The notes beneath the pieces were generated by a model that was not told the origin of the DNA, searched no databases, and worked only from the letters and a program-made list of their open reading frames with translations. Of a stretch of DNA of 50,885 nt, positions 33,092 through 39,049 are shown piece by piece; the first letter of the stretch is position 1, and each line of letters opens with the position of its first letter. Position numbers and translations under genes: made by a program. This stretch comes from Solobacterium sp. (GTDB lineage Bacteria; Bacillota_I; Bacilli_A; Erysipelotrichales; Erysipelotrichaceae): positions 1 to 50,885 of the forward strand of contig JAFOMZ010000284.1 of the NCBI GenBank assembly GCA_017421125.1, given 5' to 3'.

Positions 33092-33116
33092 AAAAAGAAG
33101 CACGTCACTGTGCTTC
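33092..33116 (-). terminator. Terminator embedded in the end of the GDPD-hydrolase gene
   Basis: On the minus strand GAAGCAC/GTGCTTC with a 6-nt loop is followed by TTTTTC. The stop codon of the gene (33105-33107) lies inside the hairpin loop. Confidence 0.8.
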
Positions 33117-34793
33117 TGTTTTCTTCAGGAAGTCCTGTATGATCGTGAACCATTCTTCACGTTCTTTCTCGTTGGAATAGTAGATCTCATGCCTTGATTC
33201 AGGGAAGAGATGCAGTACGGCAGAAGGAATCTTTCTGACCAGTTCCTCGATCGCTTCATTGACGACCATCTTGTCATGACCTGCTTCAAGTACGAGCAGG
33301 GGCACCTGGATGTCAGCTGTATGCTTGATGACATAGTCCATCGCGCGCAGCGATGCATTCAGCCATCCGGCTGTGCCGGCAATGGTCTGGTAGTCTTCAT
33401 CAGCGAGCCTCTGATCGAACTGATAGTTGAAGCGGATCTCCGAAAGGGTATTGCTGTTCTTGAAGTCCCTGATGCCGTCAAAGCGCTTCTGGTTCGGCAG
33501 CAGGATCATATCCCTGTGCGTGACCTTTGTGGCGGCAGCCAGTGTCTTGATGACAGGGAGATGCCAGCCTCCGAAGTCCAGCTGGATCATCGGGGATGAC
33601 ATGATGCCTGCTTCATATTCCTCCGGATATTTTTCCAGATAGATCGCCGTCAGACATCCGCCCATACTGTGGCCGAACAGGAAATGCCTGTCATCCGGTG
33701 TAAGGGGGAATACGATCTGATGGGTAAAGCTGTAAATGTCATCCAGGTATTCATTGTATGAGCCTACATAGACGATATCTTTTTCCTTGGCGACTCTTGC
33801 GGATTTGCCGTATCCTCTCAGTTCCAGGAAGAAGACGGAATAGCCTGCCTGGTAGAAACGGTAAAGCACTTCATGGTATTTACCGAAGAATTCGCAGAAT
33901 CCGTGGACAAAGGTAATGGATGCCTTTGCGTTGGGATTCAGGGCATAGTAATAACGGATCCTAGTGCCGTCACCGGTCAGAATGTCATCGCTGACGATAT
34001 GGTCTTTCAGCCATGGCTTGATCTGATGTTCCAGCAGGTCATTGAATGAATCATTTTCGAACACATATGATTCCGCGGTCTCCCTGGTCGTATCCGGTCT
34101 GTTGGTGATGATCGTTGTAACACCGAGATCGATGCATCTGCGGATATGGTCCGGATCATCAACTGTCCAGACGTTGATATCAAGACCCTTTTCTGCGCAG
34201 TCTTTTGTCATATCGGGATACTGGAGGTTGTATACGGCAGGATTGAGCGCATCCATGCCATGCTCCTTTGCATAGGAAGGCATGTCGATCGGTCCGTCTG
34301 CGTAGAGGAAACCGACATAAGCGTCCTTGTTCAGTTCCTTGATGCGTCTGCATGTGTAGTGGTTGAAGGATGAATAGTTGACACGGTCTTCCATTCCTTT
34401 TTCCTTCACCAGCGCGAGTATCTTCTCCTCCAGATGATCATAGAAAACGATGCCTGTCTTCAATTCGATATCGATCGTCAGATCAGTCGGCTTCAGAAGG
34501 TCCAGCACTTCATCCATCGTTGGGATGTCCGCATGTTCATATTCCGGATGAGTCCTGTTGTAGTTGAATTTTCTGAGCTCTGCCAGAGTCATATCTTTGA
34601 CCCAGCCCGAACCGTTGCTGGTACGGTCAATGGTCTCGTCATGGATGACAACGATCCTGTCATCTTTTGTCAGCTGAATATCAAGTTCAACACCGTCAGC
34701 CTTCATTTCGATCGCTTTCTGAAAAGCCGGGATGGTATTTTCCGGCGCATAGGCACTGGCACCTCTATGCGCCCAGATCAATGGTTTCTTCAT
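33105..34793 (-). CDS. Glycerophosphodiesterase-alpha/beta hydrolase fusion
   Basis: 562 aa with two catalytic domains. Residues 1-240 are a glycerophosphodiester phosphodiesterase: His9-Arg10 in AHRGAS, Glu36 and Asp38 in VELDIQ, His51 in VIHDET. Residues about 270-562 are a monoacylglycerol-lipase/lysophospholipase-like hydrolase: HGF (297-299), Ser376 in GHSMGG, and acid and His near the C-terminus (LEAGHDKMV, PESRHEI). No signal peptide or membrane segment is visible, so both activities should be cytosolic. Together they could strip acyl chains and cleave the head group of lysophospholipids. The second of two nearby ATGs was chosen for spacing to AGGAG. Confidence 0.9.
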   Translation of the reverse strand: MKKPLIWAHRGASAYAPENTIPAFQKAIEMKADGVELDIQLTKDDRIVVIHDETIDRTSNGSGWVKDMTLAELRKFNYNRTHPEYEHADIPTMDEVLDLLKPTDLTIDIELKTGIVFYDHLEEKILALVKEKGMEDRVNYSSFNHYTCRRIKELNKDAYVGFLYADGPIDMPSYAKEHGMDALNPAVYNLQYPDMTKDCAEKGLDINVWTVDDPDHIRRCIDLGVTTIITNRPDTTRETAESYVFENDSFNDLLEHQIKPWLKDHIVSDDILTGDGTRIRYYYALNPNAKASITFVHGFCEFFGKYHEVLYRFYQAGYSVFFLELRGYGKSARVAKEKDIVYVGSYNEYLDDIYSFTHQIVFPLTPDDRHFLFGHSMGGCLTAIYLEKYPEEYEAGIMSSPMIQLDFGGWHLPVIKTLAAATKVTHRDMILLPNQKRFDGIRDFKNSNTLSEIRFNYQFDQRLADEDYQTIAGTAGWLNASLRAMDYVIKHTADIQVPLLVLEAGHDKMVVNEAIEELVRKIPSAVLHLFPESRHEIYYSNEKEREEWFTIIQDFLKKTEAQ

Positions 34794-34936
34794 GAGTTTC
34801 ATTCTCCTGTGAATATTATAACAGTGTTGTCTGAAACAGGCTCCTGTTCTTTTGACCGTTTCTCAAAAAACAGCCTGATCGTTTGCCTGTTACTTGTATT
34901 TCATCTGTTGTATCATTGTGGGAAAGGAGTCACATT

Positions 34937-36049: not shown

Positions 36050-37561
36050 TTACAATATCAGCAGAACGATCACCAGGATCACTGCCGGAACGGTTACCGT
36101 ATCCCACTCACTGGATGAGACCAGTTCGGTAAATGCACCTGCTGCAGCACCGAGCAGGGATGCGGAAAGAGATACAGAAGCCGGATAGCCGCAGTACAGG
36201 CCGAGCAGGGCGGCTCCTGTCAGGAACGACACCACCAGCATGGCACATGTGCCTTCCCATGACTTCTTTCCGTTGACGGGAGGGAACATGACCTTATGTC
36301 TGCCAAACGGGATACCGACCAAGGCAGCGGCAGCGTCTCCCTGACCCCACATCAGGATTGCCGCGGCAGCCGCGTGAGGCTTGTCCATCATGCCCCAGGC
36401 AGCACTGATCAGTGCTGCAAACATCAGGAACAGCTTCAGGAGACTGCGCTTGATCTCTCCCGGTGTTTTCTGTACAAAAAGTCTTCCATACCATGGTTCG
36501 TGCTCAAATACAGCCAGCAGAGGATAGATCAGGACTGCGATCAGCGTGCTTGTAAGTGCTGCAGCCTGCCAGCTCGCGGCTGCCAGCAGCATCACCGTAA
36601 TACATGTAAACGCGATCATATGCAGGAGCTTCCGGAAGACAAAAGACGGGATCCATGTGAATATGCGGACCGGCAGCGCGATGAGAACGCAGGGAATGAT
36701 ATACAGGATCAGCGTTGTCAGGCAGTCCAGAACATCCGCCGCAAGCGGTACAGACATGATCTGTTCGCGGAAATTCAGCACCAGCATGGCTGACCCAAGC
36801 AGGGTCAGGACAATGCCTGTCGTCAGTCCTACCGTACGGCTGCTGACACGGTTGGCATAGCGGGCGGATATCAGGGACGCTGCGGTAGCCGTCACGATGC
36901 AGATGATCATGACCGGCCATTTTTCCAGCAGGATCGCAGGATGGATCAGGATGTGGCTGACGGATGCGATCAGCGCCGTGAACGTCATGATGAACGTGCT
37001 CGTGCCGACGGCTGTCTTGAGTTCCATTCCCAGAAACATCGTGAACACCACCAGCATCATCATGCCTCCGCCGGTACCGACGAAACCTGTTCCGAAACCG
37101 ATCGTAATACCGAAGAAGAGAGAGATCAGGATGCCTTTCAGATCCAGCGGATGTCCTTTGTCCGGACGGTCTTCTTTAGAACTGTCGGGCTTCACCAGGA
37201 AACGGATGCCGATGAAAAATGTCAGGAACAGCGTGAAGCTTCCCAGGACGACATTGCCGACAAGGAATGCGGCATAGCTGCCGACTGTGCACATGCACAG
37301 GATGCATACCAGCATGATCCAGCCGCGCTTCAGGTCGATGTTTTTATGCTTTGCGTATGTATATGCCGTGACTGCAGAGCCAACGATGTCCGATGCCAGA
37401 GCGATCGCCGTTGCCTGGTAGGCTCCGGTCTCACCTGAAAAGGAGGGACACAATACGATCAGGATCGGTACCATGACCGTAGCGGCAGACAGTCCTGCCA
37501 GCCCTGTCCCGATCCCGGCGCCAAGAGAAGCGATGATATACCAGAATAGTTCCAAAATCAT
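36050..37561 (-). CDS. TauE/SafE permease fused to phytol/dolichol-kinase-like domain
   Basis: 503-aa polytopic membrane protein with two recognisable halves. Residues 1-265 are a TauE/SafE (DUF81) anion exporter: paired glycine-rich helices GAGIGTGLAGLS (14-25) and GTGFVGTGGGMMM (157-169). Residues about 285-503 carry the phytol/dolichol kinase signature: FRKLLHM (309-315), GQGDAAAALVG (406-416), GKKSWEGT (431-438), TE near 478 and WDTVTVP near 486. Such enzymes use CTP or UTP to phosphorylate isoprenoid alcohols. The frame is open through the junction. AGGAGG precedes the ATG closely. The esterase gene ends 9 nt upstream, so they share an operon. Substrates are unknown. Confidence 0.82.
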   Translation of the reverse strand: MILELFWYIIASLGAGIGTGLAGLSAATVMVPILIVLCPSFSGETGAYQATAIALASDIVGSAVTAYTYAKHKNIDLKRGWIMLVCILCMCTVGSYAAFLVGNVVLGSFTLFLTFFIGIRFLVKPDSSKEDRPDKGHPLDLKGILISLFFGITIGFGTGFVGTGGGMMMLVVFTMFLGMELKTAVGTSTFIMTFTALIASVSHILIHPAILLEKWPVMIICIVTATAASLISARYANRVSSRTVGLTTGIVLTLLGSAMLVLNFREQIMSVPLAADVLDCLTTLILYIIPCVLIALPVRIFTWIPSFVFRKLLHMIAFTCITVMLLAAASWQAAALTSTLIAVLIYPLLAVFEHEPWYGRLFVQKTPGEIKRSLLKLFLMFAALISAAWGMMDKPHAAAAAILMWGQGDAAAALVGIPFGRHKVMFPPVNGKKSWEGTCAMLVVSFLTGAALLGLYCGYPASVSLSASLLGAAAGAFTELVSSSEWDTVTVPAVILVIVLLIL

Positions 37562-37570
37562 CTCCTCCTG

Positions 37571-38371
37571 TCATTGTCTCATGATCCATGAATCATAGAT
37601 CTCACAAAGCTTCTGTTTTGCGGCTTTGCTTGTTTTCAGCCACGGACAGAGCAGATCGAATGCATGGATGTCTCCATGGTAAACATCAAGGCATGTTCTG
37701 ATGCCTGCCTGATCCAGGCGGGCAATATAGTCGAGCGTTTCCTGATAAAACGGCTCCCCGTCCTGAACGAATGTACAGCAGGGAGGCATGCCGCTCAGGT
37801 CTTCTGCCAGGGCGGGACTTGCATATGCAGGTACATGGTCTGTTCCGTAAAGTGAACGCAGATAATATGACCATCCCCAGTGATTCCGCTTTGTGTTCCA
37901 GACTTTTCCGTGATTATCACGGGAAGAGGAGGTGTCGCGGCAGTCGATCATCGGATACAGCGGGATCTGCATGGCTACCGGGATGTTTTCGTGGTCCCGG
38001 TTGTACAGACATACTGCCGCGGCAAGTCCGCCGCCGGCGCTCTCACCGCCGGCAATGATGCGCTGCACATCGATGCCCAGTTCTTCCGCATGATCATGCA
38101 TATAGACCAGCGCAGCATAACAGTCATCCAGGGCTGCGGGATAAGGCGCCTGTTTTGCAAGTCTGTATTCAGGTGACAGGACAACGGCTCCGTACCGTTC
38201 CGCCAGCATTTTCCCGCAGGAAAAGCTGACCATGGATGCCATGCCCAGCACATATCCTCCGCCATGGATCCAGAGGATCCCGGGCAACGGATGTATGGTA
38301 TGATCCGGCTTCAGCACGATGCAGTCCATATATCTGCCGGATGTTTTGATCTTGATCATTGTTTTTTTCAT
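37571..38371 (-). CDS. Alpha/beta hydrolase, acetyl-esterase (HSL/Aes) family
   Basis: 266-aa serine esterase. HGGG (36-39) forms the oxyanion hole and Ser111 sits in GGESAGGG; the His is in GDIHAFD. The family hydrolyses short acyl esters in the cytoplasm. The start was placed at MKKTMIKI; a TTG 9 codons upstream is an alternative but overlaps the promoter area. It is co-transcribed with the permease-kinase fusion and divergent from a TetR regulator, which probably controls it. Confidence 0.87.
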   Translation of the reverse strand: MKKTMIKIKTSGRYMDCIVLKPDHTIHPLPGILWIHGGGYVLGMASMVSFSCGKMLAERYGAVVLSPEYRLAKQAPYPAALDDCYAALVYMHDHAEELGIDVQRIIAGGESAGGGLAAAVCLYNRDHENIPVAMQIPLYPMIDCRDTSSSRDNHGKVWNTKRNHWGWSYYLRSLYGTDHVPAYASPALAEDLSGMPPCCTFVQDGEPFYQETLDYIARLDQAGIRTCLDVYHGDIHAFDLLCPWLKTSKAAKQKLCEIYDSWIMRQ

Positions 38372-38423
38372 TGTTTTCCCGGGTTGTCTGATTGACAAAT
38401 CAGTTTACCTGTTTATATTTTTA

Positions 38424-38472
38424 TTCAACAGATGTCGGGTTTGCAACCGACAGATGTCAGGATTCTGTTGAA
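38424..38472. promoter_or_regulatory. Nested operator in the tetR/esterase divergent promoter
   Basis: Outer inverted repeat TTCAACAGA (38424-38432)/TCTGTTGAA (38464-38472) surrounds an inner inverted repeat TGTCGG (38433-38438)/CCGACA (38447-38452). ACAGATGTC is also repeated directly at 38428 and 38450, 22 bp apart or two helical turns. It lies directly upstream of the tetR ribosome-binding site. Likely binding site of the TetR protein. Confidence 0.7.
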
Positions 38473-38488
38473 TTGGAAAGGGGCATTT

Positions 38489-39049
38489 ATGGCACAGAAA
38501 GATAACCAGAGAGTCAGACATACGAAGCATCTGCTGACACAGGCACTGACAGATATGCTGCAGGAAATGCCGATCCAGGCTGTATCGATCAAGGAATTGT
38601 GCGAACGTGCAGGCATCAACAGAACGACATTTTATTATCATTACGGTAATCAGTATGATCTGCTGGAAGAGATCAGTGATTCATTTCTGATTTCAGTCAG
38701 GCAGCGGCTGTCATCAGCTGAACCCAACAGCAGGGAAAGCGTGCTTGAAATGGTGACGCTGGTGTTCACCTATATGGAGGAACATATCCAGCTGTCACGT
38801 CTGCTGCTGAACAATATGGTCGACCAGGGATTTGCCTACCGTATTATTACGCTTCCGGAGATCCCGGACCTGCTCAGCGTTTGCCGCAATGATGAGTTTG
38901 ATCCGGCTCTTCAGCATGCGGCAGATACATTTGCCGTATCAGGAAGCTACAGACTGCTGCAGTTATGGATCAAGGATGATCACAGGAGAAGTGCCGCAGC
39001 AGAAGCTGAAATGATCCTGGAACTCGCAAGAAAGGTATATCAGAAATAA
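38489..39049 (+). CDS. TetR/AcrR family transcriptional regulator
   Basis: 186 aa. The N-terminal helix-turn-helix includes SIKELCERAGINRTTFYYHYG, with the TetR recognition-helix signature RTTFYYHYGN. The C-terminal ligand/dimer domain resembles the DhaS-type TetR group but is not diagnostic. AAAGGGG lies 5 nt before the ATG at 38489. It is divergent from the esterase and permease-kinase operon across a shared palindromic region, the standard layout for autoregulated local repressors. Confidence 0.92.
   Translation: MAQKDNQRVRHTKHLLTQALTDMLQEMPIQAVSIKELCERAGINRTTFYYHYGNQYDLLEEISDSFLISVRQRLSSAEPNSRESVLEMVTLVFTYMEEHIQLSRLLLNNMVDQGFAYRIITLPEIPDLLSVCRNDEFDPALQHAADTFAVSGSYRLLQLWIKDDHRRSAAAEAEMILELARKVYQK

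Follow-up and report, generated by a model that had tools for sequence, protein, structure and literature searches.

A conserved fusion of a TauE/SafE transporter domain with a putative CTP-dependent lipid-alcohol kinase in Solobacterium and its relatives

One gene of the gut bacterium Solobacterium sp., located in the window analysed here (the whole stretch of 50,885 nucleotides), raises the question of why a transporter-type domain of the TauE/SafE (TSUP) family should be joined in a single polypeptide to a domain resembling the CTP-dependent kinases of lipid alcohols (Table 1). The gene encodes 503 amino acids in one uninterrupted frame and is present once in its own draft genome, which comprises 299 contigs and is 84.6% complete. 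The N-terminal half resembles the TauE/SafE permeases over the full length of the domain (PF01925, residues 9-259, E = 9.5e-34, 117.5 bits against a Pfam cut-off of 32.6, covering positions 2-237 of the 237 in the profile). Residues 270-503 of the protein have no match in Pfam or NCBIfam and are assigned by motifs and predicted fold; the blocks that a sequence-only reading of this DNA had quoted from them were located (RKLLH at residue 310, GDAAAALVG at 408 and GKKSWEGT at 431), and the two-domain architecture proposed in that reading stands. A full-length AlphaFold model of the fusion has a pLDDT of 85 and a pTM of 0.74. The fusion is a new combination of two known families, and no published description of a TauE-kinase fusion was found in the open-access literature searched, including the undecaprenyl-related literature.

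Table 1. Features of the fusion locus and of related kinase-DUF92 genes (positions are those of the window unless a locus is named).
Feature	Position	Strand	Remarks
Whole fusion gene	36050..37561	-	TauE/SafE (TSUP) domain, then SEC59/VTE5-type CTP-dependent lipid-alcohol kinase domain (putative)
N-terminal TauE/SafE domain, residues 1-264	36770..37561	-	PF01925
C-terminal kinase-type domain, residues 270-503	36050..36754	-	motifs and model; PF01148 in relatives
Abhydrolase_3 (HSL-type) esterase	37571..38398	-	PF07859, E = 3.6e-51; directly upstream, about 10 bp from the fusion
TetR-family regulator, divergent	38432..39049	+	PF00440, E = 2.7e-8
Nested palindrome, TetR/esterase intergenic region	38422..38473	.	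ATTCAACAG...CTGTTGAAT and ACAGATGTCGG/CCGACAGATGT
GDPD joined to lysophospholipase/monoacylglycerol-lipase-like hydrolase	33105-34802	-	kept in L031 and L032
VTE5-like kinase fused to DUF92 (VTE6-like), 457-aa ORF	L125:96-1469	-	
VTE5-like kinase fused to DUF92 (VTE6-like), 457-aa ORF	L126:6050-7423	+	beside carotenoid genes

A search for the same architecture, which the sequence-only reading had proposed, found the fusion conserved in about 46 non-identical proteins from independent assemblies, 35 of which were aligned (56-95% identity to the window protein). In a phylum-wide sample of genomes it is confined to two families of the window's order (Erysipelotrichales-type); public contigs that carry it bear other family names too, these being MAG labels of which several are seemingly inconsistent. 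In domain trees built by a quick method, with many weak inner branches, the 46 non-identical fused TauE domains form one clade (SH-aLRT 99) with kinase-less forms nested inside it, suggesting repeated loss or splitting. The two domains also meet in other arrangements: a protein of 533 amino acids (L026) has them in reversed order, kinase then TauE, with a TauE domain from a distant clade, and in an operon at another locus (L078) a kinase gene lies directly upstream of a TauE gene whose product nests in the fusion clade as sister to L059, the kinase belonging to a different subfamily that groups with L134. These are single cases from draft assemblies; together with the fusion they indicate that the TauE-kinase association arose repeatedly, at least three times. 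Such a conserved pairing of repeated origin suggests that the two halves probably work together. Each domain is also found alone in other genomes (kinase-less TauE in L067-L076, TauE-less kinases in L135-L139), so the partnership appears to be favoured, not obligatory. Kinase genes of an intermediate group (L134, L170 and L172) lie beside membrane-only Cation_efflux-like proteins of about 205-214 amino acids, again an enzyme adjoining a transporter-type protein.

The most literal reading of the TauE half is that, like an ordinary TSUP protein, it is an exporter of sulfite or of a small sulfonate, and that the kinase half catalyses a lipid reaction either unrelated to export or coupled to it loosely. 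This reading, which we consider unlikely, is favoured by the clear Pfam membership and by one genome (G022) in which a standalone kinase has a gene of the 2-phosphosulfolactate phosphatase type (PF04029, at L133) as its neighbour and which also has a kinase-less TauE of the fusion clade. However, that phosphatase gene is convergent and not co-transcribed with the kinase, no sulfur- or sulfonate-metabolism genes recur beside the about 46 fusions, and the recurrent union of TauE and kinase speaks against the two being unrelated. The fused TauE domain also differs from ordinary TSUP proteins in being joined to an enzyme and in forming a clade of its own (SH-aLRT 99), apart from the standalone TauE proteins that are more common in these bacteria.

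Residues 2-264 of the full-length model resemble BacA/UppP (5oon) with a Z of 14.8 and an rmsd of 4.0 over 246 residues, whereas matches of the TauE region to unrelated folds reach a Z near 5. The authors of the BacA structure termed its fold unique in 2018 and asked whether BacA might also be a flippase (PMC5852022). The structural likeness is the sole link between the two: the BacA catalytic motifs, [EQ]xxxE and PGxSRSxxT, occur in none of the 35 aligned fusions, and profile comparisons of TauE with BacA or DUF368, made from shallow alignments, gave no match. No TSUP structure appears among the solved-structure matches of the model, an absence that carries no weight, and the BacA-like fold predicted here may possibly reflect a general relation between TSUP and BacA. 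Fusions of DUF368 to lipid-phosphate enzymes are known in either order (DUF368-PAP2 and PAP2-DUF368), as is a fusion to BacA (DUF368-BacA; PMC9876793), which by analogy sets a precedent for treating fusions as hints to function; the likeness of the TauE-kinase fusion to the UndP translocases DUF368 (PopT) and DedA (UptA) is one of analogy only, as the Pfam families differ. In parallel with the known DUF368-phosphatase fusions, the TauE clade might be a BacA-fold lipid-phosphate translocase, not a sulfite exporter, and would then form with the kinase a one-protein machine that phosphorylates and flips polyprenyl or other lipid phosphates, a proposal that is speculative and rather doubtful. Compensation for missing UndP flippases was rejected: judged by eye, the presence of DedA does not distinguish congeners with the fusion from those lacking it, and DUF368 is rare in both. 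BacA/UppP (PF02673) was not found in the window's own genome and was found in 16 of 16 good-quality relatives; given the incompleteness of that genome, the absence is probably due to missing data.

Homologous kinases offer a hint to the lipid that is phosphorylated. More distant standalone kinases, which score 52-95 bits with a profile of the fused kinase, share operons in many Bacilli with a carotenoid-type desaturase, squalene/phytoene synthase and DUF92, the family to which the phytyl-phosphate kinase VTE6 belongs. Operons with the desaturase, squalene/phytoene synthase, a VTE5-like kinase and DUF92 were seen at L173, L174, L175, L177, L178, L179, L132, L128 and other loci, and look like a prenol salvage pair that feeds C30 carotenoid synthesis outside photosynthetic organisms. 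At two further loci the kinase is itself fused to DUF92 (Table 1), possibly forming a two-step enzyme that converts a prenol to a prenyl diphosphate. The kinases of these VTE5-VTE6 pairs (as in L173 and L132) and fusions (L125 and L126) are homologous to the fused kinase and were found with its profile; unlike it, they form a clade apart (support 100) and have carotenoid genes and DUF92 as neighbours, with no TauE. Their genomic context speaks for isoprenoid alcohols as the superfamily's substrates, and for the fused kinase an isoprenoid alcohol is a guess at roughly even odds.

The gene content of the genus qualifies this guess. Neither DUF92 nor squalene/phytoene synthase was found in any of the 70 congeners, which thus lack the combination of VTE5 and VTE6 that defines the salvage pair, and the relatives in carotenoid operons may therefore differ from the fused kinase in substrate. 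A kinase of the UdpK/DgkA family (PF01219) is encoded in the window's own genome and in 55 of the 70 congeners, so the fusion is not the cell's basic undecaprenol kinase, and diacylglycerol (DAG) kinases of family PF00781 are encoded in 68 of the 70; since both families are already present in the genus, replacement of either by the fusion was rejected. The recycling of polyprenols suggested in the sequence-only reading is possible. With DUF92 and squalene/phytoene synthase lacking and UdpK and DAG kinases present, the fused kinase is probably an accessory enzyme and the lipid monophosphate probably its end product.

An improbable alternative is that the kinase half is a CTP-dependent DAG kinase of the DGK1 type engaged in phospholipid turnover, with the TauE half moving the lipid or headgroup product. 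It is suggested by the fusion gene of a glycerophosphodiester phosphodiesterase (GDPD) and a lysophospholipase-like hydrolase two genes away in the window, which is kept together with the locus in L031 and L032, by a membrane GDPD that abuts a standalone kinase in L013, and by TauE relatives that adjoin cardiolipin-synthase-like genes (L018 and L023) or PlsC-like acyltransferases (L079 and L085). However, an M42 peptidase gene on the opposite strand separates the fusion from the GDPD gene, and the abundance of PF00781 among the congeners also speaks against a further DAG kinase. The lipid-gene neighbourhood, promising at a few loci, failed in a broader sample: TauE relatives across the class lie mostly beside MarR regulators and mixed genes, with no trend towards lipid genes.

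The reading of the C-terminal half as a lipid-alcohol kinase begins with its motifs. RKxxH (residues 310-314), D409xxAxxxGxxxG..K433SxEG437 and E479..DT488xxVP492 correspond to RKxxH, DxxAxxxGxxxG...K[ST]xEG and E...DT..VP, each of which is present in 35 of 35 fusions, in agreement with the CTP-kinase-type assignment of the sequence-only reading, and the catalytic-type motif residues are essentially invariant. The same motifs are common to the SEC59/DGK1/VTE5-FOLK kinases of dolichol, DAG and phytol or farnesol (PF01148), as is a membrane fold of several helices, one face of which is conserved. The CTP-binding-type motif of the window protein, D409AAAALVGIPFG...GKKSWEG437, has its loose pattern in all 35 fusions; the wording DxxAxxxGxxxG...K[KR][ST]xEG reportedly stems from the human dolichol kinase work of Shridas and Waechter. 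PF01148 (CTP_transf_1) itself matches 7 of 30 relatives of the C-terminal domain (best E = 8.8e-7), and the window protein not at all at E<=5. The fused kinases constitute a subfamily of their own, with WGxGD where the carotenoid-linked kinases have xYGDG, and differ from the SEC59/DGK1/VTE5-FOLK kinases in the fusion to a transporter and, within the genus, in the lack of a DUF92 partner. In the malarial prenol kinase PfPolK, RKxxH acts as a charged clamp in which R29, K30 and H33 close the CTP pocket (PMC10849223).

The AlphaFold model of the C-terminal domain alone (pLDDT 94, pTM 0.90) has all kinase motifs on one membrane face. The loops of that face average 2.7 and 4.6 K/R against 0.3-0.7 on the other face, and by the positive-inside rule the active site of the modelled domain should be cytoplasmic. 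The best solved-structure match of the model is CarS (5guf, Z 9.3, rmsd 2.5 over 103 residues), followed by CdsA at a Z of 7-8, values just above the level attainable by helical bundles, unrelated channels reaching the same Z as CdsA; a profile of the domain also gave a weak match to CdsA (4q2e, E = 0.012) across the GD...KSxEG region. CarS, the CDP-archaeol synthase, and CdsA are CTP-using intramembrane lipid enzymes, and their place as the nearest solved structures is what favours taking the C-terminal half as a CDP-lipid synthase, a cytidylyltransferase like CdsA or CarS, and not as a kinase. This is very unlikely, as the CdsA signature PS01315 and its loose parts are absent from 35 of 35 fusions, all of which have instead RKxxH and the dolichol-kinase-type CTP motif; most related genomes have a separate CdsA-like ORF of 255-290 amino acids (detected as weak matches of the fused-kinase profile), and the solved structures yielded no kinase of this family, which may account for CarS and CdsA being the nearest. 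A CTP-dependent lipid-alcohol kinase is thus the best reading of the C-terminal half, given the kinase motifs in all fusions, the CdsA signature in none, the clamp and the fold, and from these we infer its kinase activity and use of CTP.

The fusion itself is real and old. The spacing from G256 of TauE to R310 of the kinase is exactly 54 residues in all 35 aligned fusions, and both halves are under purifying selection (dN/dS 0.02-0.06 for TauE and 0.13-0.17 for the kinase, taken from pairs with unsaturated synonymous sites). That the window protein is a sequencing or assembly artefact, such as two ORFs joined in error near residues 270-285, or that its kinase half is a decaying remnant, is a negligible prospect even for a draft genome, since the same fusion recurs with constant spacing in independent assemblies as about 46 distinct proteins, its kinase motifs invariant and its kinase half constrained. 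A mobile or viral origin was also rejected: viral contigs searched with six peptide patterns have no related protein, and plasmid records match the TauE half only.

Adjacent genes suggest how the fusion may be regulated. The esterase and the divergent TetR-family regulator are as the sequence-only reading described them (Table 1), with true starts probably at an ATG near 38371 and near 38489, respectively. The esterase accompanies 4 of the about 46 fusions and is absent at most loci, which lends no support to the suggestion of the sequence-only reading that it could free the alcohol for the kinase from an ester; apart from the window, it adjoins the fusion upstream in L031 and L032, and downstream in L036, where it is 54% identical and differently arranged. 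The TetR cluster of the window occurs in 9 loci, and L122-L124 have another TetR gene that diverges from the fusion. From its sequence, the nested palindrome between the TetR and esterase genes, largely kept in L031 and L032, is a candidate TetR operator. Elsewhere the genes around the fusion differ greatly from locus to locus (MATE, peptidases, LarC-like and others, some named by a look at the sequence only).

Our preferred reading, held with somewhat better than even confidence, is an intact bifunctional membrane protein in which a lipid-alcohol kinase is functionally tied to a transporter. The C-terminal half, of the SEC59/VTE5/DGK1 type, would use CTP on the cytoplasmic face to phosphorylate a lipid alcohol dissolved in the membrane, an isoprenoid being the likeliest, to a monophosphate, and the TSUP-fold N-terminal half would transport a cargo tied to this reaction, either the phosphorylated lipid or an anion that the reaction takes up or gives off. 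Control by TetR-type regulators would make this an inducible accessory function and not a housekeeping one.

To our knowledge, few bacterial CTP-dependent lipid-alcohol kinases have been characterised, and a cargo is known for only a minority of TSUP transporters. A conserved and repeatedly evolved fusion links the two families, so that each gives a testable hint about the other, and if the TauE domain carries lipid phosphates, a large family of transporters would need re-annotation.
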